Assembly: GCF_002803085.1 (NCBI RefSeq)
Contig: NZ_NNBJ01000020.1
Span: 1 to 64,000 of the forward strand
Origin: Streptomyces sp. CB01201
GTDB taxonomy: Bacteria > Actinomycetota > Actinomycetes > Streptomycetales > Streptomycetaceae
Direction: 5' to 3'
Length of the DNA stretch: 64,000 nt
The translations under genes were made by a program, and so were the position numbers. Below are positions 6,607 through 25,900 of the stretch, piece by piece (within the stretch, counting starts at the first letter, position 1; the number at the start of each line of letters is the position of its first letter). The notes beneath the pieces are model-generated. The model was given only the letters and a program-made list of their open reading frames with translations. It ran no database searches and was not told where the DNA came from.

Positions 6607-6680
6607 GTTTGACTCGTCGGGCTCAGCGCCAGCGCTGTCGCAGCCGGAGCCACGGCATACGACAACGGGAAGGAACTCCC

Positions 6681-7995: not shown

Positions 7996-8025
7996 GCAGC
8001 CCCGCCCGCTCAGGGGCGGGGCTGC
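7996..8025. terminator. bidirectional hairpin terminator
   Basis: A perfect 12-base stem (GCAGCCCCGCCC at 7996-8007 with GGGCGGGGCTGC at 8014-8025) closes a 6-base loop that contains the stop codon of the convergent deiminase gene. It sits 8 bases after the enolase stop. There is no T-run, as is common in high-GC actinobacteria. Confidence 0.7.
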
Positions 8026-9161
8026 TCCCTGGTGACGCAGTGGATGCCGCCGCCGCCCGCGCCGAGGCTGTCGATGTCGAGCTGTTCCACCACGCGCCCC
8101 GGGAACAGCTGCCGCAGGCTCGACCTGGCCGCGGCGTCCGCGCGCGCGTCGCCGAACTGGGCCGAGATCACCGCGCCGTTGCAGACGTAGTAATTGGCGT
8201 ACGCGGCGACGAAGTTGGGGTCACTCGACCGGATGCGGCCGTAGTCGGGACCCTGGATCTGGGCGACGGCGATGGGCCAGCCGTCCGCGTCCTTGGCCGC
8301 CGACAGGATCTGGTACTGCTGGCGGGCGTCCTTCGACCAGGCGTCGGTGTCCGTGGCCAGGGGCATCTGGACCAGACCGGACCCGGCGGCCAGAAATCTG
8401 GAGGTCGCGTCCACGTGGTCGTCGGTGATGTCCCGCCCGGTCACGCCGTTGAACCAGATCACCTGGTCCGCGCCGTACGCATCGCAGAGCGCCGCCTCGA
8501 TCTGCGCCTGCTTGAGCCGAGGGTTGCGGTTGGTGTTGATGAGACTGCTGCGGGTCGCCATGAGCGTGCCGTTGCCGTCCGTCTCCACCGCGCCGCCCTC
8601 CCCGACGAGGGCCGCCGTGGTGAACGGGACCCCGAGGCCGGCCGCTATCCGCTGCGCGACCAGGGCGTCCTTGGCATGGGTCTGTTTGTTGCCCCAGCCG
8701 TTGAAGTTCAGCCCCACGGCGTCGAGGCCTCCCGCGCCGTCGGTGCGAAAGACCGGACCGGTGTCACGCATCCAGCAGTCGTCGACCGGGATCGTGCCGA
8801 TCACGGTGACGGACGGGCCGCACGCGGTGCGGGCCTTCGCCACACTGGCGGAGTTGGCGCACAGCGTGACGGGCTCGTACTGGGCGATGGTCCTCGCGAT
8901 GAGCGCGATGTCGGCCTGCACTCCGGCCAGTTGGCGTCCCCAGATGGCACTGCTGTCGGGCCACGCCATCCAGGTACGGGTGTGCGGAACCGCGTCGACG
9001 GGCACGGCGAAGGCCGCGGCCGGGGCCGGGGCCGCATGTGCCCTGCCGCCCGTGCTGACCGCCAGGGTCGCACCCGCCGCGGCGGCTCCGGCGGCCGTCA
9101 GGAAGGTGCGCCTGCCGAGCCGGCCGGACGCGGGGACGCTTGAAGCGAGCTGGTCGTTCAT
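8010..9161 (-). CDS. agmatine deiminase family protein, Tat-exported
   Basis: A 383-residue member of the peptidylarginine/agmatine deiminase family (PAD_porph). The N-terminus GRLGRRTFLTAAGAAAAG followed by an Ala-rich stretch is a Tat signal (cleavage probably near residue 43). Catalytic positions of agmatine deiminase are kept: Asp of DDCWMRDTGP, Glu of GEGGAVETDGNGT, His and Asp of DITDDHVD, and the nucleophilic Cys of GGGGIHCVT. It hydrolyses a guanidino group to a ureido group plus ammonia; agmatine is the default but unproven substrate. It begins 13 bases after the importer ATPase gene and is the last gene of a seven-gene operon. Confidence 0.88.
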   Translation of the reverse strand: MNDQLASSVPASGRLGRRTFLTAAGAAAAGATLAVSTGGRAHAAPAPAAAFAVPVDAVPHTRTWMAWPDSSAIWGRQLAGVQADIALIARTIAQYEPVTLCANSASVAKARTACGPSVTVIGTIPVDDCWMRDTGPVFRTDGAGGLDAVGLNFNGWGNKQTHAKDALVAQRIAAGLGVPFTTAALVGEGGAVETDGNGTLMATRSSLINTNRNPRLKQAQIEAALCDAYGADQVIWFNGVTGRDITDDHVDATSRFLAAGSGLVQMPLATDTDAWSKDARQQYQILSAAKDADGWPIAVAQIQGPDYGRIRSSDPNFVAAYANYYVCNGAVISAQFGDARADAAARSSLRQLFPGRVVEQLDIDSLGAGGGGIHCVTREQPRP

Positions 9162-9174
9162 CTCTGATCTCCGA

Positions 9175-10018
<844 letters not shown>

Positions 10019-10026
<8 letters not shown>

Positions 10027-11059
10027 GGTCGGCACTCCCCGTGACGCGGTCGCTGTGGTGGCAGGCGACCCGGTGCTCACGTCCGTCGGGGGCAGCCGTG
10101 ACGGCCCGGTCCTCGGGGGCCTGTTCCGTGCAGATCCCGGTGGCGTGGACGCAGCGGGGCGCGAACGGACAACCCGTCAACTCGGCTTTCAGATCCGGAG
10201 GTTGGCCGTCGATCGCGTTGAGCCTGCCCTGCGGTGCGTCGAGTCGCGGGGTGGCCGCGAGCAGGGCCGCCGTGTAGGGGTGACGGGGCCGGGCGAACAG
10301 GGCGTCGGCGGGGCCGGCTTCGACGATCCGGCCGGCGTACATCACGTACACCCGGTCGCTGATGGTGGCGGCGAGGCCGAGATCGTGGGTGACGAAGAGC
10401 AGCCCGGTGCCGAAGCGGTCGCGGAGGTCACCGAGGAGGGCTACGACCTCGGCCTGGGTGGTGACGTCGAGGGCGGTGGTGGCCTCGTCCGCCAGGAGCA
10501 GTGCCGGGTCGCCCATCAACGCGGCCGCGATCATGACGCGTTGGAGCATGCCGCCGGAGAGCTGTCCCGGGTACTGGCGCATCACCGCCGGAGCGAGGCC
10601 GACCGCCACGAGCAGCTCCCCGGCACGCCGCTCGGCCTCCTCGGCGGATGTCCCGGTGTTCAGGCGCAGGCTCTCGGTGAGGAAGTCCCCGATCCGGCGC
10701 AGCGGGTTGATGGCCGCGCGGGGGTCCTGGAAGATCATGGCGGCCGTGCCGGTGCGCAGCGCGCGCAGCCGTGCGGCGCTCATGGTGAGCACATCCTCGC
10801 CCGCGACCCGGACGGCACCTTCGGTGCCGGCGCCGGGCGGGAGCAGGCGCAGCACACTGCGCGAGGTGAGGGTCTTGCCGGAGCCCGACTCGCCGACCAG
10901 GGCGACGGTCTCCCCGGCGGCCACGGTGAGGTCGACGCCGTCGAGTACGGGCCGTGCGGTGCGCGGAAGACGCAGGCGCAGCCCTCGGATGTCGAGCACG
11001 GGCGAGGCGGTGACGGAGCCCGTGGACGCGCAACTGGCGTGTTTTTCCTGGGTGTTCAT
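10019..11059 (-). CDS. ABC importer ATPase, DppD/OppD type
   Basis: A 346-residue ATPase. Walker A is GESGSGKTLTSR, the signature LSGGMLQRV, Walker B LLLADEATTALDVT, and the switch His is in FVTHDLGL. The C-terminal oligopeptide-family extension has the cysteine cluster GCPFAPRCVHATGIC, which in this family is associated with an iron-sulfur or metal site. GGAGGG precedes the ATG at 11059, which overlaps the permease stop by 4 bases (ATGA). Part of the deiminase-importer operon. Confidence 0.92.
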
Positions 11060-11910
11060 CGATCCCTCCTGGCGACCCGGTCGGCCCAGCGCTCGCCGAC
11101 GACGTTGAACGCGACGACCGTGAGCACGATCGCGACACACGGCCAGATCGCGGAGAGCGGGTAGCCGCGCTGGACGGCGGTCTGGCCGTCGAGCACCATG
11201 CGGCCCCAGTCGGGGGTGAGTGCGGGCACGCCGAGGCCGAGGAAGGAGAGCCCGGCCAGGTCGATGAGGGCGTACCCGAAGTTGATGGTGGACTGGGCCA
11301 GGACGACGGGCCCGACGTTGGGCAGGACGTGCCGCAAGCAGATCTGCGGGGCGGAGTGGCCCTGCACCACGTAGGCGTTCACATAGGGCCGTTGACGTTC
11401 GGCGAGCACCAAGGAGCGGGTGAGTCTGCTGACGTAGGGGAGATAGGCGACGGCGAGTGCGATGACGGGGGCGGTGAGTCCCTCTCCGTACACCGCGACG
11501 ATGAGGATCGCGAGGAGCATGCCGGGGAAGGCGAAGACGAGTTCCGTGCTGCGGGAGAGCACGGAGTCGAGCCAGCCGCCCCGCCACGCCGCGGTGGTTC
11601 CGATGGCCACGCCGGCCAGGGTGGAGAAGGCCACCACTCCGAGGGGCCCGAGCAGGGAGGTGCGGGCTCCGGTGACCAGTCGGGCGAGCGTGTCGCGGCC
11701 GGAGGAGTCGACGCCGAAGGGGTGGGCCGCGGAGGGGCCGGCGAGTGCGTTGCCCAGGTCCACGGCGTTGGGGTCGGCCGGCGAGATCCAGGGCGCGAGC
11801 AGGGCCGCGAGGACGACGACGGTGACGAAGGCGAGGCACAGCAGGTAGAGGGGTGCGTGAGGGGTGCGGAGCCGGGACAGGCCCGGGCGCCGCAGGACGG
11901 CGACGCTCAT
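11056..11910 (-). CDS. ABC importer permease, DppC type
   Basis: A 284-residue inner-membrane permease with about six helices and the BPD_transp_1 domain. The EAA-like coupling segment is AYVVQGHSAPQICLRHVLPNVGPVV (about residues 185-210). The N-terminal PWISPADPNAVDLGNALAGPS and HPFGVDSSGRDTLARLVTGARTSL are typical of DppC/NikC. The ATGA overlaps at both ends place it in a tightly coupled operon with DppB upstream and DppD downstream. Confidence 0.92.
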   Translation of the reverse strand: MSVAVLRRPGLSRLRTPHAPLYLLCLAFVTVVVLAALLAPWISPADPNAVDLGNALAGPSAAHPFGVDSSGRDTLARLVTGARTSLLGPLGVVAFSTLAGVAIGTTAAWRGGWLDSVLSRSTELVFAFPGMLLAILIVAVYGEGLTAPVIALAVAYLPYVSRLTRSLVLAERQRPYVNAYVVQGHSAPQICLRHVLPNVGPVVLAQSTINFGYALIDLAGLSFLGLGVPALTPDWGRMVLDGQTAVQRGYPLSAIWPCVAIVLTVVAFNVVGERWADRVARRDR

Positions 11911-12866
11911 GCGGCGGACCTCCGGGGGCCGAGGGCGATGCGCGGGTCGACCAGGGGATGTGCCAGGTCAACGGCCAGATTGATCAGCATGAACAGGCCG
12001 ACCATGGTGAGGGATATGGCCTGCACGGTGGGGAAGTCCTTGGTGGTGATGGACAGTTCGAGGAGCTGGCCGATGCCGCCGACGCCGAACGCCGACTCGA
12101 CGAGGACGGTGCACACCAGGAGGGTGGACACGATCAGGCCGCCGGTGGTGAGGACCGTGCCGAGCGCGTTGCGGAAGACATGACGGCCCATCACCTTGCG
12201 TCGGGGCACCCCCCGGCTGAGGGCGACGGTCACGTGCTCCTGTCCGAGGACCTCGACCATGGCGCTGCGGGTGACCCGGGCGAGCATGCCGATCAGATAC
12301 AGGGCGAGCGCTACCGCGGGCAGCGTGAGGTGCCACAGCATCTGGACCGGCCCGTCGCCGGTGCCGCCGGCCGGGAACCAGTGCAGCCGGACCGCGAAAA
12401 GGCCCTGGAGCAGGACGGCGGCGACGAAGGACGGGGTGCCGACGGCGAGCGTGGTGGTGACCAGGATCGTCGAGTCCACGGCGCCGCCGCGCACCGCGGC
12501 GATCCGACCGAGCGCGAGGCCCGCGGCCACCACGAGCACCAGGGCCATGGCGACCAGGAGCAGGGTGCTGGGAAGGCGGTCGGCGAGCAGCCGTGACACA
12601 TCGGTGCGGTAGGTGATCGAGCGGCCGAAGTCGCCGTGCAGCAGCTGGCCGAGCCAGCGGAAGTACCGTACGGCGAAGGGGTCGTCGAGGTGGTACTGCC
12701 GGTTGATGGCCTCCAGCGCGGCCGGGGACGCGGACCGTCCGGAGAGCAGGAAGCTGGCGGGGCTTCCCGGCGCCAGATACATCGCGCCGAAGATCACGAA
12801 CGAGGCCGCGAGCAGGGTGACCGCCATTTCGGCGAGGCGCCGCAGTCCGAATCTGAGGAAGTTCAC
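11907..12866 (-). CDS. ABC importer permease, DppB type
   Basis: A 319-residue permease. The N-terminal FGLRRLAEMAVTLLAASFVIFGAMYLAPGSP and the DYGRSI-like motif GDFGRSITYRTDVSRLL are DppB/NikB hallmarks, and the coupling loop is VALSRGVPRRKVMGRHVFRNALG. The GTG at 12866 was chosen because it overlaps the binding-protein stop as GTGA and the family N-terminus starts there; an ATG at 12983 would add 39 unrelated residues. Pairs with the DppC-type permease. Confidence 0.92.
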   Translation of the reverse strand: MNFLRFGLRRLAEMAVTLLAASFVIFGAMYLAPGSPASFLLSGRSASPAALEAINRQYHLDDPFAVRYFRWLGQLLHGDFGRSITYRTDVSRLLADRLPSTLLLVAMALVLVVAAGLALGRIAAVRGGAVDSTILVTTTLAVGTPSFVAAVLLQGLFAVRLHWFPAGGTGDGPVQMLWHLTLPAVALALYLIGMLARVTRSAMVEVLGQEHVTVALSRGVPRRKVMGRHVFRNALGTVLTTGGLIVSTLLVCTVLVESAFGVGGIGQLLELSITTKDFPTVQAISLTMVGLFMLINLAVDLAHPLVDPRIALGPRRSAA

Positions 12867-14530
12867 CGCGCGGCCCCCACATCCGCCGCCCAGGGGTAGT
12901 ACAGGTAGGAGATGGTGGTGGGGGCGCCGGTGATCCGTTTGTTGAGGAACACGGTGGTCGGCCACTCGGCGACCGGTATCCACAACACCTGCTCGGCCGC
13001 CTTCTGCTGGAGCTTCGCCTCGACGGCGAACCGGGTGGCCGGGTCGTAGGCGGCGCGCGCCTGGTCGACCAGCCGGTCGTAGTCGCGGTCGCTGTATCCG
13101 GCGTAGTTCTGGTAGGCGCCGGTGCGGAAGTTGCTCAGGAGGTCCAGCGGGTCGGTGATGGAGTCGTAGTACGTCTCCGGGAAGAGGTCGATGCCCTCGC
13201 GTGCCTTGGGGTCGGTGAACAGTGCCGTGAAGGCGTTCGGCGCGATCGTCTTCAGTTGGACGTCGAGCCCGATCTGGGTGCCGGCCGCCTGGAGGGCGGT
13301 GGCGAGCAGGGACACGTCCTGTCCGATCGAGCTGGTCGCGACGGTCACCTTCTTTCCGGTGGCCCCGGCCTCCTTGATGAGCTTTCTGGCTTCGCCCAGG
13401 TTCGGCTCGGTGGCGGGGAGCCCCGCGAAGGCGGCCTGCCGGGTCTGCTCGGGCGCCTCGGCCCAGGCCGCTCTGGTGGTGAGGGAGTGGGTGACCGTCC
13501 CGGCACCGCCCAGGCCGGTCGTGACGAAGCCCTTGCGGTCGAGGGCCAGCGACAGGGCCCGCCGTACCCGGACGTCACCGAGCACGCCGTGCATGTTGGT
13601 CACGTTGACGTTGTCGGTGCTGAGCCCCTCGCCGAAGTAGAGCGTGCCCGCCCCGCTGGAGCGCAGCGCGCCGTAGCTCTCGGTGGGGATGAGGTACCCG
13701 CCGTCCACCTCGCCGTTGAGCATGGCCTTGGTGCGCGCGGAGGAATCCGTGAGGAAGCGGAACACCACCTTGCCGGACTTGGCCCTGCTCCCCCAGTACG
13801 CGGCGAACCGGTCGAGCTCGATCGACTGCCCCTTCTCCCACCTCCCGAGCTCGTACGGTCCTGTGCAGTCGAGGCCGCCGGAGGTGCCGTAGTCCTTTCC
13901 CGCCGCCTCGACGCCGGCCTTGCTCGCGACCACGCCCGCGGCGGTCGCCATGTACTGGGGGAACTGGGAGTCGGGGCGCTTCAGTTTCACCGTGACCTGG
14001 AGTGGTCCGGTCTTGGTGACCGAGCCGACGTTCTCGAAGACCTGCGCCCAGGACGCCCCGTTGTCGGGGTTCATCTGCCGCCCGAGACTGAAGACGACGT
14101 CGTCCGCGGTCATGGTGGCCCCGTTGTGGAAGCGCACTCCGGGGCGCAGATCGTAGACCCAGGTCGAGGGTTCGGGGTTGGTCGCCTTCTCGGCGAGGCC
14201 CGGAGCCGTCTTGAGCTGGGGCGTCCAGCGCATCAGGCTCTCGCAGACATTGGACAGGATCATGTTCTGCGGATAGTCGAAGGCGGAGATGTAGTCGAGT
14301 GTCGGTGGCTCCGCGTACAGGGCCCAGCCGAAGGAGGCGATCTCGCCCTTGGCGGGCGGAGTGCCGGCGGACAGCTCGAAGTCGGCTGCCGCGGCCGGGG
14401 AGTTGGTGCCGGGCGGTCCCGCGCAGGCGGACATCAGGAGGGCGGCGGACAGGGCCGCGGCGATCAGGGCGAGCCGGTGGGGACGGCGTACTCCTGGCCG
14501 GGCTCCTGGCCGGGGCGGTGGGGTGGGCAT
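12863..14530 (-). CDS. ABC importer substrate-binding lipoprotein (SBP family 5)
   Basis: A 555-residue extracellular binding protein. The signal peptide ends in the lipobox LLMSAC, with the lipid-modified Cys at about residue 36. The family-5 fold is shown by PPTLDYISAFDYPQNMILSNVCESLMRW, WVYDLRPGVRFHNGATMTADDVVFSLGR and GPYELGRW. Family members bind dipeptides, nickel chelates, opines or other cationic solutes. Here the flanking deiminases suggest a guanidino or amine ligand, which is inference. A GAGAGGAA ribosome site precedes the ATG at 14530. It follows the first deiminase gene by 98 bases. Confidence 0.92.
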   Translation of the reverse strand: MPTPPPRPGARPGVRRPHRLALIAAALSAALLMSACAGPPGTNSPAAAADFELSAGTPPAKGEIASFGWALYAEPPTLDYISAFDYPQNMILSNVCESLMRWTPQLKTAPGLAEKATNPEPSTWVYDLRPGVRFHNGATMTADDVVFSLGRQMNPDNGASWAQVFENVGSVTKTGPLQVTVKLKRPDSQFPQYMATAAGVVASKAGVEAAGKDYGTSGGLDCTGPYELGRWEKGQSIELDRFAAYWGSRAKSGKVVFRFLTDSSARTKAMLNGEVDGGYLIPTESYGALRSSGAGTLYFGEGLSTDNVNVTNMHGVLGDVRVRRALSLALDRKGFVTTGLGGAGTVTHSLTTRAAWAEAPEQTRQAAFAGLPATEPNLGEARKLIKEAGATGKKVTVATSSIGQDVSLLATALQAAGTQIGLDVQLKTIAPNAFTALFTDPKAREGIDLFPETYYDSITDPLDLLSNFRTGAYQNYAGYSDRDYDRLVDQARAAYDPATRFAVEAKLQQKAAEQVLWIPVAEWPTTVFLNKRITGAPTTISYLYYPWAADVGAAR

Positions 14531-14628: not shown

Positions 14629-15639
14629 TCAGTCGCGGCGGGGCGCGGCGGGCACCTGCTGGGTGATGCAGTGGATGCCGCCGCCGCCGTGGGCGAGCGC
14701 CGTCGTCGGTACCCCGACGACCTTGCGGTCGGGACAGGCGGCGGCGATCACGGCCAGCGCCTCCGCGTCCTGGGGCAGGCCCGCCACCGGGACGACCACT
14801 CCGCCGTTGGCCACGTAGAAGTTGAGGTAGCCCACTTCGACGGGCACGCCGTCGACCTCGGTGAACGCGCTCTGCGGAAGGTCGACGATTTCCAGGGTGC
14901 GGCCCTGGGCATCGGGGGTGGCTTCGAGGATCGCGCGGTTGGCGCGCATCCGGGCGTAGTCCGGGTGCTCCGGGTCGTCCGGCAGCTGGACCACGACCTT
15001 GCCCGGCGCGACGAAGGCGCAGACGCCGTCGACATGGCCGTCGGTCTCGGTGTCCAGGAGCCCGCCGTACGGCAGCCAGATGACCTTGGTGACACCGAGC
15101 CGGGCCTTCAGCTCGGCCTCGACCTGGTCCCTGTCCAGGCCGGGATTGCGGTTGGGGTGGAGCAGGCACTGCTCGGTGGTGATCAGGGTGCCTTCGCCGT
15201 CCACGGTGATCGCGCCGCCTTCGAGAATCATCTCCGAGCGGATCGCGGTCTCGCCGAAGTGTTCCAGGAGCGCCGCCCCGAGCCGGTCGTCGGCGTCGTA
15301 CGGGTGGTGCTTGCGGCCCCAGGCGTTGAACCGGAAGTCGACGCCGGCCCGGTGGCCCTCGGGGTCGAGAACGAAGATCGGCGCGGAATCCCTGAACCAG
15401 GAGTCGTCCAGCGGCAGTTCGATCACGTCGACATCCCCGCCGCACCGGGTACGGGCCTCGTCGCCGTGGCCGGGCGGCGCGACCATGGTCACCGGCTCGA
15501 ACCCGGCGATGGCCCGGGCCACCTGGGCGTACTCCTGCTTGGCCTGTTCCAGGACGGCGCCCCACAGATCGGGGCGGGTGGGCCAGGCCATCAGGCAGCG
15601 CTCGTGCTCGGTCCACTCGGCGGGCATGCGGAAGGTCAT
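14629..15639 (-). CDS. aguA: agmatine deiminase (cytoplasmic, AguA-like)
   Basis: A 336-residue enzyme without a signal peptide, closest of the four deiminases here to classical AguA. It starts TFRMPAEWTEHERCLMAWPTR and carries SWFRDSAPIF, ILEGGAITVDGEGTLITTEQCLL, DTETDGHVDGVCAF and GGGGIHCITQQVP, which supply the Asp, Glu, His/Asp and Cys catalytic residues. The expected reaction is agmatine plus water to N-carbamoylputrescine plus ammonia. It is the first gene of the operon that continues with the importer. The promoter at 15817-15845 carries the shared palindromic operator. No nitrilase-type AguB, the usual next enzyme, is present in the window. Confidence 0.9.
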   Translation of the reverse strand: MTFRMPAEWTEHERCLMAWPTRPDLWGAVLEQAKQEYAQVARAIAGFEPVTMVAPPGHGDEARTRCGGDVDVIELPLDDSWFRDSAPIFVLDPEGHRAGVDFRFNAWGRKHHPYDADDRLGAALLEHFGETAIRSEMILEGGAITVDGEGTLITTEQCLLHPNRNPGLDRDQVEAELKARLGVTKVIWLPYGGLLDTETDGHVDGVCAFVAPGKVVVQLPDDPEHPDYARMRANRAILEATPDAQGRTLEIVDLPQSAFTEVDGVPVEVGYLNFYVANGGVVVPVAGLPQDAEALAVIAAACPDRKVVGVPTTALAHGGGGIHCITQQVPAAPRRD

Positions 15640-15670: not shown

Positions 15671-15708
15671 TCTTCGCAAGGACGGGCAATCGGTCTTCGC
15701 AAGGACGG
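15671..15708. repeat. 15-base direct repeat in aguA leader
   Basis: TCTTCGCAAGGACGG occurs at 15671-15685 and again at 15694-15708, a 23-base period, in the leader between the promoter at 15817-15845 and the aguA start. The second copy is followed, as the first, by GGGCAA within a few bases. Function unknown; it could be a small duplication. Confidence 0.6.
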
Positions 15709-15887: not shown

Positions 15888-17597
15888 CTACAGGAAGTAC
15901 AGGCGGCTCAGGGATACCTCCTGGGCCGGTTCCGAACTGATCGGGACACCGTCAAGGGTCACGAGCCCGGTGTCCGCCCCCACCTGTACGGCGCCGAGGC
16001 GCGAGTTGTGCACCAGATCGGCGGGGCCGATGCCGCGGGTGCCGCGCACCGCCACGCGCCGGCGCCGGGTGGCCAGCGCGTCGTAGGGCCGCCCGAAGGA
16101 GCCGGACTCCGCCGCGGCCCGGCTGACGAACGCCACGGACAGGTCGGCCGCGGTGGCACCGTGGGCGCCGAACAGCGGCCCGAGCACCAGGGGTTCGCAG
16201 CGGTCGGTCGCGGCATTCGGGTCGCCGGTGACGCCCCAGGCGGGGAAACCGGACTTGAGGACCATCTGCGGTTTGGCGCCGAAGTAGGCCGGGCGCCACA
16301 GCACGATGTCGGCCATCTTGCCGATCTCGATGGAGCCGATCTCGTGCGCGAGGCCGTGCGCGATGGCGGGGTTGATGGTCAGCTTCGCCATGTACCGCAG
16401 GACCCGCGCGTTGTCGTCACCGTCCCCGTCGCCCTCCAGCGGACCCAGCTCCGCCTTCATCTTCCCGGCCATCGCAAACGTGCGCCGCACCGTCTCACCG
16501 GCCCGGCCCATGCCCTGCGCGTCCGAGGACGTGATCCCGATCGCCCCCAGGTCGTGCAGCACGTCCTCGGCACCCATCGTGCCCGCCCGGATCCGGTCCC
16601 GGGCCATCGCCGCGTCCCCCGGCAGATCCGTCTTCAGATCATGAACCGAGACGATCATGCCGTAGTGCTCCGCGACCGCGTCCCGCCCGAACGGCAGCGT
16701 CGGATTCGTGGACGAACCGATCACATTCGGCACCCCCGCCATCTTCAGCACGTTCGGCACATGCCCACCACCACACCCCTCGATGTGGAAGGCGTGAATG
16801 GTCCGCCCCTCCAGCACCTTCAAGGTGTCCTCGACCGTCAGGCACTCGTTCAATCCGTCACTGTGCAGGGCGACCTGCACATCGTGCTCCTCCGCCACCC
16901 GCAACGCCGTGTCCAGCGCCCGGGTGTGCGCACCCATGTCCTCGTGCACCTTGAACCCGCACGCACCGCCCTCCGCCAAAGCCTCCACCAGCGGAGCCCC
17001 GTCCGAGGACGAACCCCGGCCCAGGAAACCGATGTTGACCGGCCACGCGTCGAACGCGTTGAAGGCGTTGCGCAGCGCCCAGGGCGAGTTGACGCCCACA
17101 CCCCAGGCCGGCCCGATCTCCTGGCCGATGATGGTCGTGACGCCGGAGGCGAGCGAGGCCTCCATGATGCGCGGGGACAGCAGATGCACATGGGTGTCGA
17201 CGGCTCCGGCGGTGGCGATCAGCCCTTCACCGGAGACGATCGTCGTGCCGGTGCCGACGACCACGTCCACACCGGACAGGGTGTCAGGGTTGCCCGCCCG
17301 GCCGATGGCAGTGATCCGCCCCTCGCGGATACCGATGGACACCTTGCGGATCCCGACCGCCGCGTCGATGACGACGACGTTGCTGATGACGACGTCGCAG
17401 GTCTCGCGGACGGCGGCGGCCTTCAGATGCAGCCCGTCCCGGGCCGTCTTGCCGAAGCCCGCGAGGAACTCGTCACCCGGCGCCTGCGAGTCGGATTCGA
17501 CCCGGACCACGAGGCCGGTGTCCCCGAGCCGCACCCGGTCGCCGGCCCGCGGACCGTGTACGGCCGCGTATGCCGTTGGATCGACTGAGCTGTTCAC
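15888..17597 (-). CDS. ureC: urease alpha subunit-like amidohydrolase (UreC family), altered flap
   Basis: The 569-residue length matches UreC. Nickel-site residues align: His136 and His138 (DTHVH), Lys216, the carbamylated position (GFKVHED), His245, His271 and Asp359 (TSSDAQGMGR). The substrate-binding His218 and Arg335 are also present. The mobile flap differs: where Klebsiella urease has Cys319-His320-His321, this protein reads Val318-His319-Asp320 (SVHDLK). The ATG overlaps the ureAB stop by 4 bases. No ureD/E/F/G accessory genes are nearby, so nickel loading would depend on another locus. It may hydrolyse urea or a substituted urea; context favours a link to deiminase products, which is inference. 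Confidence 0.88.
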   Translation of the reverse strand: MNSSVDPTAYAAVHGPRAGDRVRLGDTGLVVRVESDSQAPGDEFLAGFGKTARDGLHLKAAAVRETCDVVISNVVVIDAAVGIRKVSIGIREGRITAIGRAGNPDTLSGVDVVVGTGTTIVSGEGLIATAGAVDTHVHLLSPRIMEASLASGVTTIIGQEIGPAWGVGVNSPWALRNAFNAFDAWPVNIGFLGRGSSSDGAPLVEALAEGGACGFKVHEDMGAHTRALDTALRVAEEHDVQVALHSDGLNECLTVEDTLKVLEGRTIHAFHIEGCGGGHVPNVLKMAGVPNVIGSSTNPTLPFGRDAVAEHYGMIVSVHDLKTDLPGDAAMARDRIRAGTMGAEDVLHDLGAIGITSSDAQGMGRAGETVRRTFAMAGKMKAELGPLEGDGDGDDNARVLRYMAKLTINPAIAHGLAHEIGSIEIGKMADIVLWRPAYFGAKPQMVLKSGFPAWGVTGDPNAATDRCEPLVLGPLFGAHGATAADLSVAFVSRAAAESGSFGRPYDALATRRRRVAVRGTRGIGPADLVHNSRLGAVQVGADTGLVTLDGVPISSEPAQEVSLSRLYFL

Positions 17598-18367
17598 GGC
17601 GCTGCCTCCTGATCATCCGATTCGTCCGTGCCGGACCCGCTCGCCGCGTTGCGGGTGTAGACAGCGGGGGCCCCGCCCGCCGTGCCGTTCACGCCGAGAT
17701 AGCCGCAGGCGGCGGCCCGGCGCAGCGCCTCGGCTTTCGCGCCCGGGGCGTCCAGCGGACCGTCGACGAGACCGGCGAAGCCGATGGCCACGCGGTCCCC
17801 GCCCATGGGTACGAGCGCGACCTCGCGGGACAAACCCGGGGCGAACCGCGTGGACGATCCGGCCGGCTCGGCGAGCCGCATGCCGTAGGCGGCGGCCCGG
17901 TCGAAGTCGAGCCGCGGGTTGCTCTCGAAGAAGTGGAAGTGCGAGGTGACACTGATCGGGACCGCGGCGGTGTTGCGGACCGTCAGCACACATTGCGGCT
18001 CGGGGCCGCGCACATCCCCGGCGCCGGGCAGCACCGCCCCCGGAGCGAGCGCGCCGAGGCCTCCACCGCCGAACGGCTCCCCGACCACGGCCAGCCGGCT
18101 CCCGTCGTCGAACACCGCCTCCACATGGATCTCGGTAACGACATCGGGCACGCCGGGCAGTACGTCCTCGGGCCCGAGGACCTTGCGGGCCGCGGCAACG
18201 GCCTCGGCGAGCCGGGCACCGTCCCGGGCCGCCTCGCAGACCGTGTCGGCGATGAGCGCGGTCGCCTCCGGCACGTTCAGCCGCAGTCCCCGGGCCCGGC
18301 GCGCTCTGGCCAGTTCGGCGGCGCCGAACAGCAGGAGCCGGTCGCGTTCCGTGGGAGTCAGCCGCAT
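17594..18367 (-). CDS. ureAB: fused urease gamma-beta subunit (UreAB)
   Basis: A 257-residue fusion. Residues 1-100 are UreA-like (MRLTPTERDRLLLFGAAELA, LNVPEATALIADTVCEAARDG, the VLPGVPDVVTEIHVEAVFDDG end) and about 125-220 are UreB-like (VRNTAAVPISVTSHFHFFESN, LDFDRAAAYGMRL, GSSTRFAPG, VALVPMGG). Such fusions occur in some actinobacterial and Helicobacter-type ureases. It would form the trimeric scaffold with the UreC-like protein translated from the overlapping next gene. The ATG at 18367 matches the canonical UreA start; the frame extends further upstream without support. The promoter with its operator is at 18499-18527. Confidence 0.9.
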   Translation of the reverse strand: MRLTPTERDRLLLFGAAELARARRARGLRLNVPEATALIADTVCEAARDGARLAEAVAAARKVLGPEDVLPGVPDVVTEIHVEAVFDDGSRLAVVGEPFGGGGLGALAPGAVLPGAGDVRGPEPQCVLTVRNTAAVPISVTSHFHFFESNPRLDFDRAAAYGMRLAEPAGSSTRFAPGLSREVALVPMGGDRVAIGFAGLVDGPLDAPGAKAEALRRAAACGYLGVNGTAGGAPAVYTRNAASGSGTDESDDQEAAP

Positions 18368-18614: not shown

Positions 18615-19196
18615 GTGGGTGACCGTAGAACAGCGATCATGGAAGCGGCCGCGCGGGTCATCGCCCGGCGCGGGGTGCGGGGACTGCGGGTGGAGGAGCT
18701 GGCCGCCGAGGCCGGGGTGTCCACCGCGCTGATCTACTACCACTTCAAGGACCGGGCCGGAATCCTGCGCCGCACACTGGAGTTCATCAGCGACCGCGCC
18801 GAGCGCTACACCTCCGAGCGCGAGACGCCGGCCCGACCGCTGGACCCGCGCCGGGAGCTGGAACAGACCCTCCTCCTGGAACTCCAGGACGAGCCCGTGG
18901 TCCGGGAGAACAGCACCGCCTGGGGCGAGCTGCGGGCGAACGCCGTCTTCGATCCCGAACTGCGCGAAGACCTCGCCAAGGCCACGCTGATCTGGGTGCA
19001 GGAGACCGCCGAGCTGCTCGGCCAGGTCAGCCCCATGTCCCCGGCCGCGAGCCTGGCCGCGTCGGCCGAGCGGCTCACCGCCCTCCTCGAAGGGCTCAGC
19101 ATGCGCTGGCTCAGCGGCATCCTTCCGCTGACGCACGCCCGCACCCTGCTGCTCGAAGCCGTCGCCGTCGAGCTGGAGCGCCTGGACCGCAAGTAG
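18615..19196 (+). CDS. TetR-family regulator (first of tandem pair)
   Basis: A 193-residue TetR protein. The helix-turn-helix is VIARRGVRGLRVEELAAEAGVSTALIYYHFKDRAG (about residues 15-49), and the all-helical ligand domain starts at EFISDRAERYTSE. It is divergent from ureAB-ureC, with the palindromic operator between them. The next gene encodes a close relative (shared RGVRGLRVE..AAEAGVS..LIYYHF.DRAG), suggesting duplication and possibly heterodimers. The start is GTG at 18615; an internal ATG at 18639 would cut into the first helix. It is the leading candidate for the repressor of the three operators. Confidence 0.88.
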   Translation: MGDRRTAIMEAAARVIARRGVRGLRVEELAAEAGVSTALIYYHFKDRAGILRRTLEFISDRAERYTSERETPARPLDPRRELEQTLLLELQDEPVVRENSTAWGELRANAVFDPELREDLAKATLIWVQETAELLGQVSPMSPAASLAASAERLTALLEGLSMRWLSGILPLTHARTLLLEAVAVELERLDRK

Positions 19197-19259
19197 CCGG
19201 GCTCCCGGTAAAAGCGCCGCACGGCAAGCGCACCGCTGTTGACTGGTTACTGTACGAAC

Positions 19260-19838
19260 GTGAGTACTCGACGTGCCAAGCTGCTGGAAGCGACCTGCCG
19301 AGTGATAGCCCTGCGGGGCGTCCGAGGGCTGCGGGTGGAGGACGTCGCCGCCGAGGCGGGCGTCTCCAAGACGCTGATCTACTACCACTTCCGCGATCGC
19401 GCGGGCCTGGTCACCAGCGCCCTTGAGTACGTCAACGACCGCGCCGAGGGCTATGCGGACATCGCGGAGGACGACGACTCCCTCGCCCGTGACCTGCTTC
19501 TTCGCCTGCTCGCCGCGGAGTTCCAGGACGACCCCGCGGTACGGGAGAACTCCGCGGTATGGGCCGAGGTGCGCGCGGCGGCCACCTTCGACGAGGCGCT
19601 CCGGCCCGTCCTGACCGCACTGACCGAACGCTGGCTGGTCGACCTGGCCGAGCTGATCGCCGACGGCCAGGACGACGGCACCATCCCCGCGTCGGTGGAT
19701 TCGCGGGCCGCCGCGATCCGGCTGACCGCCCTGGTCGAAGGACTGAGCGGTCGCTGGCTGGCCGGCCTGGTCACCACCTCCGAGGCGCGGGCCCATGTGG
19801 AGGCGGCCCTGGATCGGGAGCTTCAGGCCACCGCGTAG
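19260..19838 (+). CDS. TetR-family regulator (second of tandem pair)
   Basis: A 192-residue TetR protein with HTH VIALRGVRGLRVEDVAAEAGVSKTLIYYHFRDRAG (about residues 16-50) and a ligand domain of the same lay-out as the preceding regulator (EYVNDRAEGY, EFQDDPAVRENSAVWAEVRA versus ELQDEPVVRENSTAWGELRA). I chose the GTG at 19260; a TTG at 19239 is also possible and no clear ribosome site supports either. The next operator (19944-19961) lies 105 bases beyond its stop. Which of the two proteins binds which operator cannot be told from the sequence. Confidence 0.86.
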   Translation: MSTRRAKLLEATCRVIALRGVRGLRVEDVAAEAGVSKTLIYYHFRDRAGLVTSALEYVNDRAEGYADIAEDDDSLARDLLLRLLAAEFQDDPAVRENSAVWAEVRAAATFDEALRPVLTALTERWLVDLAELIADGQDDGTIPASVDSRAAAIRLTALVEGLSGRWLAGLVTTSEARAHVEAALDRELQATA

Positions 19839-20167: not shown

Positions 20168-21259
20168 ATGAGCCACCTCCCCCCAGGCAGGCGTCTGCTG
20201 GATGCCCTCCTCGGTACGCGCCCCTCAGCCGCACCCCCGGACGGCCGCGCGAACGGCGCCTGGCGCGTACCGGCGGACGATGTGCCGCATGCCAGAACCT
20301 GGATGTCCTGGCCGTCCCGCAGGTCCATCTGGGGACGCCGACTGGGCGGCGTGCAGCAGGACATCGCGCTGATCGCCCGTACGGTCGCGGCGTACGAGCC
20401 CGTCGTCCTGTGCGCCCCGGACGACTACACGGCCGCACAGGCCAGGGCCGCGTGCGGGCCCGGGGTCACCGTCATCGACTCGATCCCCACCGACGACCTG
20501 TGGATGCGCGACACCTGCGCGGTCTTCCGCCGCGACGGCCACGGCGGCCTCGACACCGTGGGCCTCAACTTCAACGGCTGGGGCCGTAAGCAGACCCATC
20601 ACGACGATGGCGAAGTCGCCGCGTGCGTAGCCGAGTTCACCGGCCTCGGGTTCCACCGGGCCGACTTCGTCGGGGAAGGCGGCTCGGTCGAGACCGACGG
20701 CGACGGTACGGTCATGGCCACCGAGAGCAGCCTGGTGAACAGGAACCGCAATCGTGGGATCGGCCGCCCGGAGATCGAGGAGGCCGTGCTCGCGGCGTAC
20801 GGCGCCGAGAAGATGATCTGGGTTCCCGGAGTGCCCGGCCGCGACATCACCGACAACCACATCGACGTCACCTCCCGCTTCGTGCGCCCGGGTGTGATCA
20901 TGGTGCAACTGCCGCCCGACGACCGGAACGACGTCTGGGCCCGCGACGCGCGCGAGCAGTTCGCGATCCTCTCGGCGGCCACCGACGCCCGCGGCCGCCG
21001 GCTCCGGGTGATCCGGGTGGACGGTCCCGCGACCGTGCGGTCGCGGAGTTCGGCGTTCGTCGACTCCTATCTCAACTTCCATCTCGTCAACGGCGCGGTC
21101 ATCACGGCGCAGTTCGGCGACCACGCGACGGACGCCGCGGCCCGCCGGAGCCTGGCCGAGGCGTTCCCCGGACGCGAGGTGGTCCAGCTGGACGTGGACC
21201 GCCTCATGGCCGGAGGCGGCGGCATCCACTGCTCGACGATGCAGCAGCCGCACCCCTGA
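20168..21259 (+). CDS. agmatine deiminase family protein
   Basis: A 363-residue deiminase-family enzyme. Catalytic blocks are LWMRDTCAVF, GEGGSVETDGDGTVMATESSL, GRDITDNHIDVTSRF and GGGGIHCSTMQQP. It shares VPADDVPHARTWMSWP, VGLNFNGWGRKQ and GRDITD.H.D with the Tat-exported protein at 8010-9161, so these form a subfamily apart from AguA. No export signal is evident: the first 35 residues are PG-rich and not hydrophobic. The ATG at 20168 has a poor ribosome site. The operator-bearing promoter lies about 200 bases upstream. Confidence 0.86.
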   Translation: MSHLPPGRRLLDALLGTRPSAAPPDGRANGAWRVPADDVPHARTWMSWPSRRSIWGRRLGGVQQDIALIARTVAAYEPVVLCAPDDYTAAQARAACGPGVTVIDSIPTDDLWMRDTCAVFRRDGHGGLDTVGLNFNGWGRKQTHHDDGEVAACVAEFTGLGFHRADFVGEGGSVETDGDGTVMATESSLVNRNRNRGIGRPEIEEAVLAAYGAEKMIWVPGVPGRDITDNHIDVTSRFVRPGVIMVQLPPDDRNDVWARDAREQFAILSAATDARGRRLRVIRVDGPATVRSRSSAFVDSYLNFHLVNGAVITAQFGDHATDAAARRSLAEAFPGREVVQLDVDRLMAGGGGIHCSTMQQPHP

Positions 21260-21434
21260 TCCGGGATCCGCCCCCACGGCGGCCCAACACGCACGCCCGA
21301 CCCGGGTGCGCGAAAAGAAAAACACCCTCGGCTACTTTCCTCCCAAGGGACCGCTCTTCGGGTTCTGTCCGGCATCCGTCCGGCTCCGTATGCCCCCGAA
21401 CGGCGACCCACCCGCACGACGCAGGAGTTTCTCC

Positions 21435-22610
21435 GTGACCCCTCCCCCCATGTCCCGGCGCACCGCGCTGCGCACGTTCGCCGGCTTCGGCGCCCTCTCC
21501 CTCACCGCCGCGGCCTGCGGCCCCGGGGACACCCCGGCCGGATCGTCCTCCGCCTCCCCCACGGCAGCGGGCGAACGAACGGCGGGCGAGCGGACGGCGG
21601 GCCGGCGCTTCGGTGCCGAGTGGGACAGTCACGCCCGTACGTTCATGTCGTGGCCCGCGCTCGATTCGGTGTGGGGCGAGCAACTCCCGTCCGTGCGCGC
21701 GGACATCGCGCGGGTGGCACGAGCGGTGGCGGAGTACGAGCCGGTGGTCCTGATGGCCAGGCCCGACCAGCAGGCGGCGGCCCAGAAGGCGTGCGGCTCC
21801 CAGGTCGAGGTGATTCCGCTGGCCGTGGACGACCTGTGGGCCCGTGACACGGTGCCGGTGTTCGTGGAGGAGGACGGCCACACCCTGGGTGTCGACTTCA
21901 ACTTCAGCGGCTGGGGCAACAAGCAGGTCCACACCAACGACGCACAGGTGGGCCGTCTGCTGCTCGCGAAGTACGGCATCGCCCGCGCCAAGGCTCCGCT
22001 GGTCGCCGAGGGCGGCTCCTTCGAGACCGACGGCGAGGGCACACTGATGGTCACCGAGAGTTCGGTGGTCAACAAGAACCGCAACCCGGGCAAGTCACGG
22101 GACCAGATCGAGGCCGAACTCAAGAGCAGCCTCGGCGTGAAGAAGGTGCTCTGGCTCGCCGGAGTGCGGGGCAAGGACATCACGGACGCACACGTCGACA
22201 GCATCGCCCGCTTCACCGCGCCGGGGGTCGTCCTGGTCGACCAGGCCTTCCCGGGCAGCCCGCCGGACGTGTGGTCGCAGTCGGCGGACCAGGCCAGGTC
22301 GGTCCTCAAGCGGGCAACGGACGCCCGCGGCAAGCGACTTGAGGTCATCGACCTGCCGCAGCCAGACCTGGACAAGATCACCGGCCGGGGCGACTCCTTC
22401 GTCTCCACCTATGCGAACTTCTACGTCGCCAACGACTCCGTGTTCATGCCCCGCTTCGGCGACGCACAGGCCGATGACCGGGCGAAGGGCATCCTCCAGG
22501 AGCACTTCCCCAAGCGCGACATCGTGATGGTGAAGATCGACACCATCGCCTCCGGAGGCGGCGGAATCCACTGCTCGACCCACGACCAGCCCGGCAAGCC
22601 CGCCCAGTAG
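21435..22610 (+). CDS. agmatine deiminase family protein, Tat lipoprotein
   Basis: A 391-residue deiminase. The N-terminus has SRRTALRTFAGFGALSLTAAAC, which combines a twin-arginine motif with a lipobox-like end (Cys at about residue 29), so the enzyme is probably anchored outside the membrane. A Ser/Ala/Thr-rich linker follows. Catalytic blocks are LWARDTVPVF, AEGGSFETDGEGTLMVTESS, GKDITDAHVDSIARF and GGGGIHCSTHDQP. AGGAG at 21423-21427 sets the GTG start at 21435. It lies 175 bases after the third deiminase and could be co-transcribed. Confidence 0.87.
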   Translation: MTPPPMSRRTALRTFAGFGALSLTAAACGPGDTPAGSSSASPTAAGERTAGERTAGRRFGAEWDSHARTFMSWPALDSVWGEQLPSVRADIARVARAVAEYEPVVLMARPDQQAAAQKACGSQVEVIPLAVDDLWARDTVPVFVEEDGHTLGVDFNFSGWGNKQVHTNDAQVGRLLLAKYGIARAKAPLVAEGGSFETDGEGTLMVTESSVVNKNRNPGKSRDQIEAELKSSLGVKKVLWLAGVRGKDITDAHVDSIARFTAPGVVLVDQAFPGSPPDVWSQSADQARSVLKRATDARGKRLEVIDLPQPDLDKITGRGDSFVSTYANFYVANDSVFMPRFGDAQADDRAKGILQEHFPKRDIVMVKIDTIASGGGGIHCSTHDQPGKPAQ

Positions 22611-22648: not shown

Positions 22649-22936
22649 CTACCCGCCGTGGACGGTGGTGAGGTCGCTGAGGCCCGAGATGGTCAGGACC
22701 GGGTCCAGCAGCGGGTTGGTGACGAGTTGGAGCCGCTCGGCGTGCGGGAACAGGACGCTGAGGCCGGCGCTGTCGAGGTAGTCCACACCGGTGAGGTCGA
22801 GGACCAGGGGGCCGGCCGTGGTCGCGAGGGCGGCGGCCAGCTCACCGGCGTTGCTCATGTCGATCTCGCCGACCGCGGTCACCAGCCCCGTTCCGTCGGG
22901 CCGTCGTCCATGGGTGAGGGTCAGGGCAGTGGTCAT
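22649..22936 (-). CDS. STAS-domain anti-sigma factor antagonist
   Basis: A 95-residue single STAS domain of the SpoIIAA/RsbV type. GEIDMSNAGELAAAL, PLVLDLTGVDYLDSAGLSVLF (phosphorylatable Ser in DSAG at about residue 56) and a C-terminal helix are present. Its ATG overlaps the stop of the large kinase-phosphatase gene by one base (TGATG). It is the natural substrate of that protein's phosphatase domain and the partner of its terminal ATPase domain. Confidence 0.9.
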   Translation of the reverse strand: MTTALTLTHGRRPDGTGLVTAVGEIDMSNAGELAAALATTAGPLVLDLTGVDYLDSAGLSVLFPHAERLQLVTNPLLDPVLTISGLSDLTTVHGG

Positions 22937-25900
22937 CAGACGATCCTCGTGTGCATGTCGACGGTGGTTCCGGACGGTCCGGGGGTGACGGTGACGTGCT
23001 GCATCAGCGCCCGCATCAGTCTCATCCCCCGCCCGCGATGGGTGTTGAGTTCCGGCTCCGGAGCCTTCCAGCGGCCCGTGTCGGCGATGGTCAGGCGCAG
23101 ATTGTCGACGTAGGCCTCGGCCCGGAAGTGGATGGTCTCGCCGGGGGTGTCGCGGTGGCCGTGCTCGATGGCGTTGGCGCACGCCTCGCCGGCGGCGACC
23201 AGAACGTTCTGCACCGTGGTGGGGGGCAGGTCGCACTGGTCGAGCCAGCTGCGCAGCGACTTGCGCACGGGGGCGAGCTGGGAGGACTCGGCGGGGAACG
23301 TCATCTCCAGCGGGGCCGGGTGGCGGTAGAGCAGCAGGGCGACGTCGTCGTCGTACCCGCCGACGGGCGCCAGCTTGGACATGACATCGGTGGCGAGCTC
23401 GTCGACCGCCGTGTTGCGGCCGTCCTGGAGGGCCTCGCTGGCCTGGTCGATGCCCGCGCTGAGCGGACGGCGGCGGCGCTCGACGAGGCCGTCGGTGTAC
23501 AGGAGCAGCGTGGACCGGGCCGCTATGACGCAGGTGCCTTCGGGCCGCTGCCTGCCGGTGCGGACGGCCAGCGGAAGGGACCGCCCGTCTTCGAGGAGCC
23601 GGGTGGTGCCGTCCGGGTGAACGAGGATGCCGGGCGGATGGCCCGCGCTGGAGTACGTCAGCTGTCCGGTGTCGGCGTTTAGGACACCGCAGAAGACGGT
23701 GGTGCAGACGGCGCCCGGAACACCGGCGGCGAACTGGTCCAGGGCCATCAGCGTCTGGGCCGGGCTGGCGTCCTGGAGCAGCAACGCCCGGCAGGCGCTG
23801 CGCAGTTGACCCATGACGCTGGCGGCTTCGAGGCCCCGGCCGACACAGTCACCGACGACGATGCCTATGCGGCCGTCCGGCAGGCCGACGGTGTCGTACC
23901 AGTCGCCGCCGACCTCCAGGGGCTGGGTGGCGGGCTCGTACCGGACGGCGAATCCGTCGGGCAGCTGCGCGGGGCCGAGGATGGCCCGTTGCAGGGCGAT
24001 GGCGGTCTCGCGCTGCTGGTCGAACTGGTGGGCCCGGTGCAGACCCTGGGCGAGGTGGCCGGCCAGGAGGGAGAGCAGCAGCTGGTCCTCGCCGGTGAAG
24101 GGCCGGTTCTCGCCCAGATCGATCCACAGGGCGAGCGGGCCGTCGGGGAACTCCAGGAGGACACCGGCCCCGGTGGGGTCGGCGGCCGGGGTCAGGATCG
24201 GCCCCTGGCGAAGGGAGTTGAGGGTGTCGCGCCGTCCGGCGGGCAGTTCCGCCCAGCGCGGTGTCCCGTCGGTGGAGGTCAGTGTGGGCTCGTCGCCGTG
24301 GTCGAACACGGCTGCCATGACCCAGCGGGCGCGCCAGATCTTCTTCAGTTCGTCCAGGGCCCCGGCCAGCGCCTGGGGCAGGCTGGTGGCCCGGGCCAGG
24401 CAGGTGCCGAGGGCGGCCAGGGCGCTTTCGCGTTGGATGGCGTAGTGCTCGGCCGTCACGTCCCGGAAGGTGCCGACGGTCACCCGGCGGCCGGTGTCGG
24501 GATCGTCGACCTGGTTGAACGTGGCCGTGACCCAGAGCCGGTGGCCGTCCCGGTGGGTGATCGGAATGGTGTAGGAGCCCTTGGTGCTGCCGAGCAGCAG
24601 CGCGAAGGCGTCGCTGACCTGCTGGTGTGCCTCGGAGTCGGTGGCGTCGGGCCACCAGGGGTGGACCGGACGGTAGGGCAGGCCTTCGGGTCCGTAGCCG
24701 AGGATGTCGGTGAACGCCGTGTTGATCTCGACGACGGCGCCGTCCTCGTCGCAGACGAAGAAGGCTTCCTGTAGGGAGTCCACCAGCGCGGTGCGCCAGC
24801 GGGCGTGATGGCTGCGCAGCCGTGCCAGCTCGATGTTCGCCCGGACCCGGGCGAGGAGTTCCGCGGCCGCGAACGGCTTGACGAGGTAGTCGTCGGCGCC
24901 CGCCCGCAGGCCCTCGATGGACGCCTCCTGTCCGGCCCGTGCGGACAGGAGCAGCACGGGGACCGAGGCGGTCCGTGAGTCCGCCCGCAGCGCCGCGACC
25001 AGGGCGAGTCCGTCCATGTGGGGCATCATGACGTCGCTGATCACCAGGTCGAAGGCCTGTGCGCGGACGGCCCGCAGCGCCTGTCGGCCGTCGTTCACCG
25101 CGCTGACCCGGTGCCCCGCACCACGCAGCAGCCGCATGAGGTACTCGCGCATGTCGGCGTTGTCGTCGGCGACAAGCACATGGGCCTGCTCGGCGCCGGC
25201 GTCCTGGCCGTCGGCGCTCGCGTTCGCGTCGCTCCCGACCGGGACCGGCATCGTCGTGGACTGCTCGCCGGGCAGCCAGCGCAGGGCCTCCTGTACGAAG
25301 GGGTCGGCCATGGCAGCCGATCCCGGGCCCGCCTCCGCGAGGACGGCATCGGCGGGCAGATGCGCGGAGCCGAAGGGCAGCCGGATGGTGAAGCTGGTGC
25401 CCCGGCCCTCGGCGGAGGTGGCGCCGATGTCGCCGCCGTGCAGTCCGACCAGCTCCTTCACCAGCGCCAGGCCGATACCGCTGCCCTCGTTGGAGCGGGA
25501 ACGGGCGTTCTCGATGCGGTGGAACCGCTCGAAAAGGCGCGGCATCTCCTGCGCCGCGACCCCGATCCCGGTGTCGTCGACGGTCACCACCGCCATGCCG
25601 TCCTCGATGCCCACGGCGACCCGGATCGAGCCGTCGAAGGTGAACTTCAGCGCGTTGCTGAGGAGGTTGAGAACCACCTTCTCCCACATGCTCCGGTCGA
25701 CGAAGACCGGCTCGGGCAGCGGCGGGCACACGACCCGGAAGTCCAGACCGGCCCGGTCGACGGCGGAGCGGAACACGCTGGCCAGTTCGCCGGTCACCGC
25801 GGCCAGGTCGACCGGCTCGTACTGGGCCTGCATCCGGCCGGCCTCGATGCGGGAGAAGTCGAGGAGGGTGTTGACCAGTTTGCCCAGGCGCAGCCCGTTG

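Follow-up and report, generated by a model that had tools for sequence, protein, structure and literature searches.

A urease-like subfamily of Streptomyces with an altered substrate pocket and a neighbouring deiminase: a candidate hydrolase of substituted ureas

We have analyzed a urease-like gene pair in a stretch of 64,000 nucleotides from Streptomyces sp. CB01201 (contig NZ_NNBJ01000020.1, positions 1 to 64,000), referred to below as the window. The pair encodes a UreC-like catalytic subunit, here called UreC* (the UreC of the window's changed type), and its partner, a fused UreAB. The usual view of urease is that it acts on urea alone and depends on dedicated nickel chaperones. We tentatively propose, with a likelihood just short of even, that UreC* derives from urease but hydrolyses a mono-substituted urea, and that it acts after a deiminase. 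In this scheme the PAD-family deiminase encoded next to it would convert R-NH-C(=NH)-NH2 to R-NH-CO-NH2 and ammonia. UreC*, a metal-dependent amidohydrolase, would then convert R-NH-CO-NH2 to R-NH2, CO2 and ammonia, a step carried out elsewhere by AguB. The two enzymes would work in series, the changed pocket accepting R on one nitrogen, with R bearing an amine. The best single substrate candidate is predicted to be N-carbamoylputrescine, although as a specific prediction this is on the unlikely side; other ureido amines or acids are further candidates.

Nearly the whole of the window UreC can be aligned with solved ureases (best E 7e-161). Against TIGR01792 (urease_alph, an NCBIfam equivalog) it scores 636.7 bits, below the cut-off of 680, and the eight UreC* members tested, the window protein included, all fall below that cut-off at 522-647 bits; the canonical UreC of the same genome, used as a control, passes it at 895.8 bits. 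The broader PRK13207 subfamily model (urease subunit alpha) is passed by the UreC* members tested. An earlier note on this DNA, made from the sequence alone, had placed the metal ligands at H136, H138, K216, H245, H271 and D359 and had read the flap as V318-H319-D320. Both observations were confirmed.

A UreC search of the source genome gives three strong genes and, more weakly, two matches to the N-terminal domain. One of the strong genes, on contig C1, is canonical, with a Cys-His-His flap and separate ureA and ureB genes, and its product is 47% identical to the window UreC*. Another, at C4:240079, is a second UreC* with a fused ureAB and is 93% identical to the window copy. Upstream of the C4 copy lies a gene that reads as a permease, and downstream are a deiminase gene supported by profile match and then, by reading, a TetR regulator and an MFS transporter. 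The flanks of this locus, also by reading, hold leuB-ilvE-like open reading frames (ORFs) on one side and a citramalate-synthase-like gene on the other. The locus resembles S. coelicolor SCO5525-5527. UreC* is a paralogue family rather than a single odd gene. The idea that it is a lone oddity of the window was rejected, as the genome has two copies and, within the order, about 202 of the 293 genomes searched carry UreC* (hand count; as a rule four candidates were scored per genome). Some UreC is found at E 1e-100 in 277 of these 293. A class sample yielded UreC* in 54 of 344 genomes, including other families at 53-73% identity. The same threshold was passed by 16 of 396 genomes in a phylum sample; four of these, 50% identical, come from outside the class and were rejected as UreC* since the tree groups them with canonical ureases. 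In one genome (G064, L231 5410-9185) the canonical ureC is broken, its two ORFs lying some 1.6 kb from each other, and a ureC of the changed type elsewhere in that genome is open throughout.

The UreC matches in 61 relatives split into two sets, at 79% identity or above and at 49% or below. The 189 UreC ORFs that aligned over more than 500 residues reduce to 168 distinct sequences, 158 of the UreC* group and 10 canonical. In a tree of 55 of these sequences, midpoint rooted and computed with a program warning of long branches, a branch supported at 100/100 sets all 45 changed-type rows apart from the rest. Pocket positions are given here in Klebsiella numbering, which is offset by 7 from the canonical UreC of the genome. 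Fourteen of the 20 tracked metal-site and pocket positions are identical in all 158 group members. These are the metal ligands H134, H136, K217 (the carbamylated Lys), H246, H272 and D360, together with His219, Glu220, Asp221, Gly277, His312, His320, Arg336 and Met364, so that the catalytic residues His219, Asp221, His320 and Arg336 are all kept. With these residues fixed throughout, and with the unit intact even in genomes lacking canonical UreD and UreF, it is very improbable that UreC* has no catalytic activity or survives only as a relic with a structural or regulatory role, as a changed pocket and the lack of adjacent accessory genes might suggest.

The remaining positions have changed across the group. 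Ala276 is replaced by Cys and Ala363 by Gly in all 158 members, Trp222 by M, L or T, His321 by D, G, A, S or Q, and Ala167 by V, L or I, with the gap placement at 167 being approximate. Cys319 is lost in 156 of 158, the flap Cys surviving in two deep members. The flap of the group thus reads x-H-y, where x is V, A, S, T or C and y is D, G, A, S or Q, never His. The loop around position 167 has 16 residues in every member, as against 20 in nine canonical rows and 17 in the tenth, which makes the substrate loop four residues shorter than in nine of the ten. Gly363 occurs in one canonical row and Ala167 is missing from three; neither of these positions is diagnostic by itself. The solved urease chain 4z42 has Asn at the third flap position, and the flap alone would not be diagnostic either. 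V-H-D was therefore rejected as the defining change. The earlier note had suggested that the protein may not be an ordinary urease and that a tree might join V-H-D proteins in a clade linked to deiminases. The first part holds to the extent that the group is distinct, deiminase-linked and changed in its pocket; V-H-D is neither the mark of the group nor fixed within it.

The changes can be set against the contacts described for urea. Ten pocket residues of the Klebsiella enzyme, including Ala167, Cys319 and Ala363, are listed in PMC7433671, in which the NH2 groups of urea form hydrogen bonds with backbone carbonyls at Ala167, Gly277 and Ala363, and perhaps with Cys319. Seven of the ten listed residues (His219, Glu220, Asp221, Gly277, His320, Arg336 and Met364) are unchanged in the 158 members. 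The three that have changed, 167, 319 and 363, are all among the contacts to the urea amines. Three of four amine contacts are thus altered while the residues that serve the carbonyl and the leaving group are kept, a pattern suggestive of a substrate in which one nitrogen is substituted. Since the contacts are made by backbone atoms, this pattern is suggestive and not proof.

A second line of evidence is the partner gene. Eighty loci were compared, being those most similar to the window protein, with close relatives over-represented. A PAD-type deiminase is present in the cluster in all 79 informative loci. In 77 of the 80 it is found 3' of ureC in the same orientation, at a median alignment gap of 27 nt; of the other three, two are Kitasatospora loci with an upstream deiminase and one is a contig end. 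Two deiminase subtypes, 44% identical, occupy the place after ureC in two chromosomal locales. The arrangement also occurs in the four loci examined in family f3 and in four of five in family f17. By hand count in the class sample, PAD_porph is present in 47 of 54 UreC* carriers and 44 of 290 non-carriers (Fisher p 5e-25, not corrected for descent), and within the genus in 26 of 26 carriers and 3 of 11 non-carriers (Fisher p 4e-6, likewise uncorrected). PAD_porph enzymes are known for acting on substituted guanidines.

The remaining evidence concerns genes that are missing. As the earlier note had observed, no accessory genes adjoin the pair: ureD, ureE, ureF and ureG were not seen among the neighbouring ORFs, and the UreD and UreF matches of the source genome lie only beside the canonical urease on contig C1. 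UreD is absent from 20 of the 21 deep UreC* genomes, the exception being G542, which has one; the genome-wide searches for accessory proteins covered UreD and UreF. Three genomes of the genus (G177, G244 and G272) have UreC* as their sole strong UreC and no match to UreD or UreF, with the unit and its flap intact; G244 has one additional weak N-terminal UreC match. UreD was also searched in the 16 genomes of the order without a UreC match and none was found. Since UreD is absent from some carriers, UreC* must do without it there. Where UreDFG are present, UreC* may be nickel-loaded by them. We do not hold that accessory proteins are never needed, given the stand-alone ureF and ureD genes of three f3 genomes (G040, G045 and G047) and the UreD of six of seven f17 carriers. 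Two of the stand-alone accessory sets (L142 5858-7972 and L144 2125-4227) have the order ureF-ureG-ureD, with ureG assigned by reading, and the DNA examined around the stand-alone ureF/ureD stretches of the three genomes gave no match to ureAB or ureC.

AguB is a nitrilase-family enzyme. Its absence from the locus, also pointed out in the earlier note, is borne out: no AguB is among the identified neighbours, and the best match in the genome has 259 bits against a curated cut-off of 410. This cut-off was not reached in any of 55 genomes (44 carriers and 11 non-carriers), the best score being 266. Weaker nitrilase relatives occur in non-carriers as well and so do not track UreC*. The broadest reading, that the whole UreC* subfamily is a distinct ureido-amine hydrolase on a urease scaffold, taking the place of AguB behind a deiminase and made in many lineages without UreDFG, is on the doubtful side.

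The closest known systems help to place UreC*. With the canonical nickel urease of Klebsiella aerogenes or Sporosarcina pasteurii it shares the family, the six ligands, His219, Asp221, His320 and Arg336, and the UreA and UreB partners. It differs in the shorter loop, in positions 222, 276, 321, 167 and 363 in every member and 319 in 156, in having no adjacent accessory genes, and in the frequent absence of UreD from the genome. The AguA-AguB agmatine pathway, in which a deiminase acts before the ureido product is hydrolysed (PMC9397018), has the same order of two steps; the difference is that an enzyme of urease type would stand at the AguB step. In carnivore Helicobacter, a second set of urease genes gives an iron urease, UreA2B2, that needs no accessory proteins (PMC6737895). 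UreC* is likewise an additional set in the source genome, and the absence of UreD from carriers is compatible with activity of that kind. UreA2B2 acts on urea and comes from another gene set, and the available part of PMC6737895 describes no deiminase link. In S. coelicolor, SCO5525-5526 appear to be of the UreC* type, as judged by their described content and numbering (fused ureAB, ureC and no accessory genes). They are called ureABC in PMC3293853, where the neighbouring SCO5527 is given as an AguA homologue of the ADC pathway. The numbers SCO5524-5527 are applied to nrdABS in PMC4991794. The ure(AB)C arrangement is one of three types of Streptomyces urease cluster and is treated as urease in PMC5489568 and also in PMC2492869. 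Within the reach of our searches, the following are new: the signature of the group and its coincidence with the amine contacts, the context of deiminase and polyamine-transporter genes, and the distribution without UreD.

Several observations weigh against the scheme of a deiminase followed by a substituted-urea hydrolase. Positions 167 and 363 make their contacts through backbone carbonyls, so that exchange of the side chains need not end urea binding, and the fourth amine contact, Gly277, is kept in all 158 members; these two points weaken the proposal and raise the chance of a plain urease. Seven of the 54 carriers in the class sample have no PAD_porph at all. The deiminases next to UreC* that were tested (own genome, f17, L194 and L200) score 340, 318, 301, 300 and 260 bits against the aguA equivalog TIGR03380, all below its cut-off of 381.8; the window deiminase (340.1) and that of C4 (318.0) are among them. 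In genome G359, from an actinobacterial relative, a deiminase above this cut-off does occur, in a row with an amino acid antiporter-like gene and a putrescine-carbamoyltransferase-like gene (L214 10140-13908; the last at 459 bits, cut-off 500), and this row is away from the UreC* of that genome. Among 15 deep loci, nine have an Amidohydro_3 (YtcJ-like) gene instead. UreD is present in six of the seven f17 carriers, and G040, G045 and G047 have only UreC* yet retain UreF and UreD elsewhere. Most of the 55 genomes encode proteins of the nitrilase family that score 240-266 bits against AguB and could do its work. The S. coelicolor genes are described as unresponsive to arginine or ArgR (PMC3293853), and the open-licence literature yielded no substrate study for UreC* or for SCO5525/SCO5526 function, nor activity data for any UreC* member.

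The alternative that survives best is that UreC* is a second true urease, serving another metal or growth condition, with the neighbouring deiminase supplying urea, for example from free guanidine. We give this a real but minority chance. It is consistent with the retention of every metal ligand and catalytic residue, with the 47% identity to the canonical UreC of the genome, and with the backbone nature of the contacts at 167 and 363 and the kept Gly277. The ureF and ureD retained in three genomes that have UreC* only suggest maturation with nickel, the genes are counted as urease in the Streptomyces papers cited above (PMC3293853, PMC5489568 and PMC2492869), and an accessory-independent iron urease is known (PMC6737895). 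A true urease would be harder to reconcile with a loop length and three of four amine contacts changed throughout the group while seven other pocket residues are fixed, with the lack of UreD in 20 of 21 deep carriers, and with the known action of PAD_porph enzymes on substituted guanidines.

A less probable alternative, in our judgement an improbable one, is that UreC* acts on something other than a urea, for example an N-acyl, formamide-type or cyclic polyamine amide, and that the link to a deiminase came later. It draws on the deep loci, of which 15 (L186-L200) were examined, from 15 of the 21 deep genomes; L186-188 are from one genus, as are L192-194, and are not independent. An Amidohydro_3 gene adjoins ureAB-ureC* or lies within about 5 kb of it in nine of the 15, a PotABCD-like polyamine-type importer is found in six, and a deiminase is nearby in five, so that often the first two are present instead of it; the features of L186-188 were assigned partly by BLAST likeness. 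In L195 (2438-10497) and L199 (9179-17177), from actinobacteria with genomes of 2-3 Mb, the importer, Amidohydro_3, ureAB and ureC* are all on one strand. The only matches of the L195 Amidohydro_3 protein to solved chains are to hydrolases that are themselves uncharacterised. A sixteenth deep locus (G513, L221) has a deiminase beside ureAB. The deiminases of L191, L192 and L193 score 518, 552 and 544 bits, above the aguA cut-off, and lie 0.5-2.1 kb from UreC* on the opposite strand, with two intervening genes in L192 and L193. These deiminases, like the PotABCD-like importers, also count in favour of the proposed substituted-urea hydrolase. A non-urea substrate is disfavoured by the recurrence of the deiminase association across several lineages in differing gene orders and by catalytic residues that are those of a urea hydrolase.

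The features of the window discussed here are listed in Table 1. The four PAD_porph deiminases are 36-58% identical to each other and lie within 15 kb. Two of them, by reading, have twin-arginine-like leaders, suggesting that deimination may take place outside the cell and feed the ABC importer. The importer ATPase at 9178-10080 has matches to Dpp/Nik-type models below their cut-offs. An enolase-family gene (6609-7988; Pfam Enolase_N and Enolase_C) adjoins the deiminase cluster, and positions 22936-27093 hold a 1385-aa ORF that by reading resembles a hybrid sensor kinase joined to parts of a response regulator and a phosphatase. An AlphaFold model of UreC, made from an 11-row alignment, had a mean pLDDT of 43 and was unusable.

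Table 1. Features of the urease-like locus in the window, with positions counted from its first nucleotide
Feature	Position	Strand	Remarks
UreC-like catalytic subunit, changed substrate pocket (UreC*)	15888..17597	-	GTG start, 569 aa; Pfam Urease_alpha and Amidohydro_1
Fused UreA-UreB (gamma/beta)	17594..18367	-	4-base overlap with ureC; PRK13192 bifunctional gamma/beta, 306.9 bits, cut-off 243
Flap codons V318-H319-D320	16638..16646	-	Middle His kept in 158/158 group and 10/10 canonical sequences
Substrate-loop codons G158-S171 (GQEIGPAWGVGVNS)	17085..17126	-	Loop length counted between fixed columns
Cys275 codon (276 in Klebsiella numbering)	16773..16775	-	Fixed group signature: Cys in 158/158, Ala in 10/10 canonical
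Gly362 codon (363 in Klebsiella numbering)	16512..16514	-	Fixed group signature: Gly in 158/158, Ala in 9/10 canonical
PAD_porph (agmatine-deiminase-like) deiminase downstream of ureC	14629..15639	-	PF04371, 386.5 bits; longest ORF starts at 15702
Family-5 extracellular solute-binding protein of ABC importer	12863..14530	-	SBP_bac_5, 231.3 bits; lipoprotein signal by reading
Rest of oligopeptide/nickel-class ABC importer (ATPases, permeases)	9175..12862	-	ORFs, by reading except the ATPase at 9178-10080
Second PAD_porph deiminase	8010..9161	-	Profile match; twin-arginine-like leader by reading
Third PAD_porph deiminase	20168..21259	+	Profile match
Fourth PAD_porph deiminase	21306..22610	+	Twin-arginine lipoprotein-like leader from internal Met49, by reading
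Two TetR-type regulators, divergent from ureAB	18615..19838	+	Relatives recur in window-type loci

If UreC* is indeed a hydrolase of substituted ureas, it would show the urease scaffold taking on a new substrate, and would do so in a sister group within a model genus. A gap in the guanidino and polyamine nitrogen metabolism of Streptomyces would be filled. A common urease annotation would also be corrected, as the subfamily would prove to be misnamed in about two thirds of the genomes sampled from the order.

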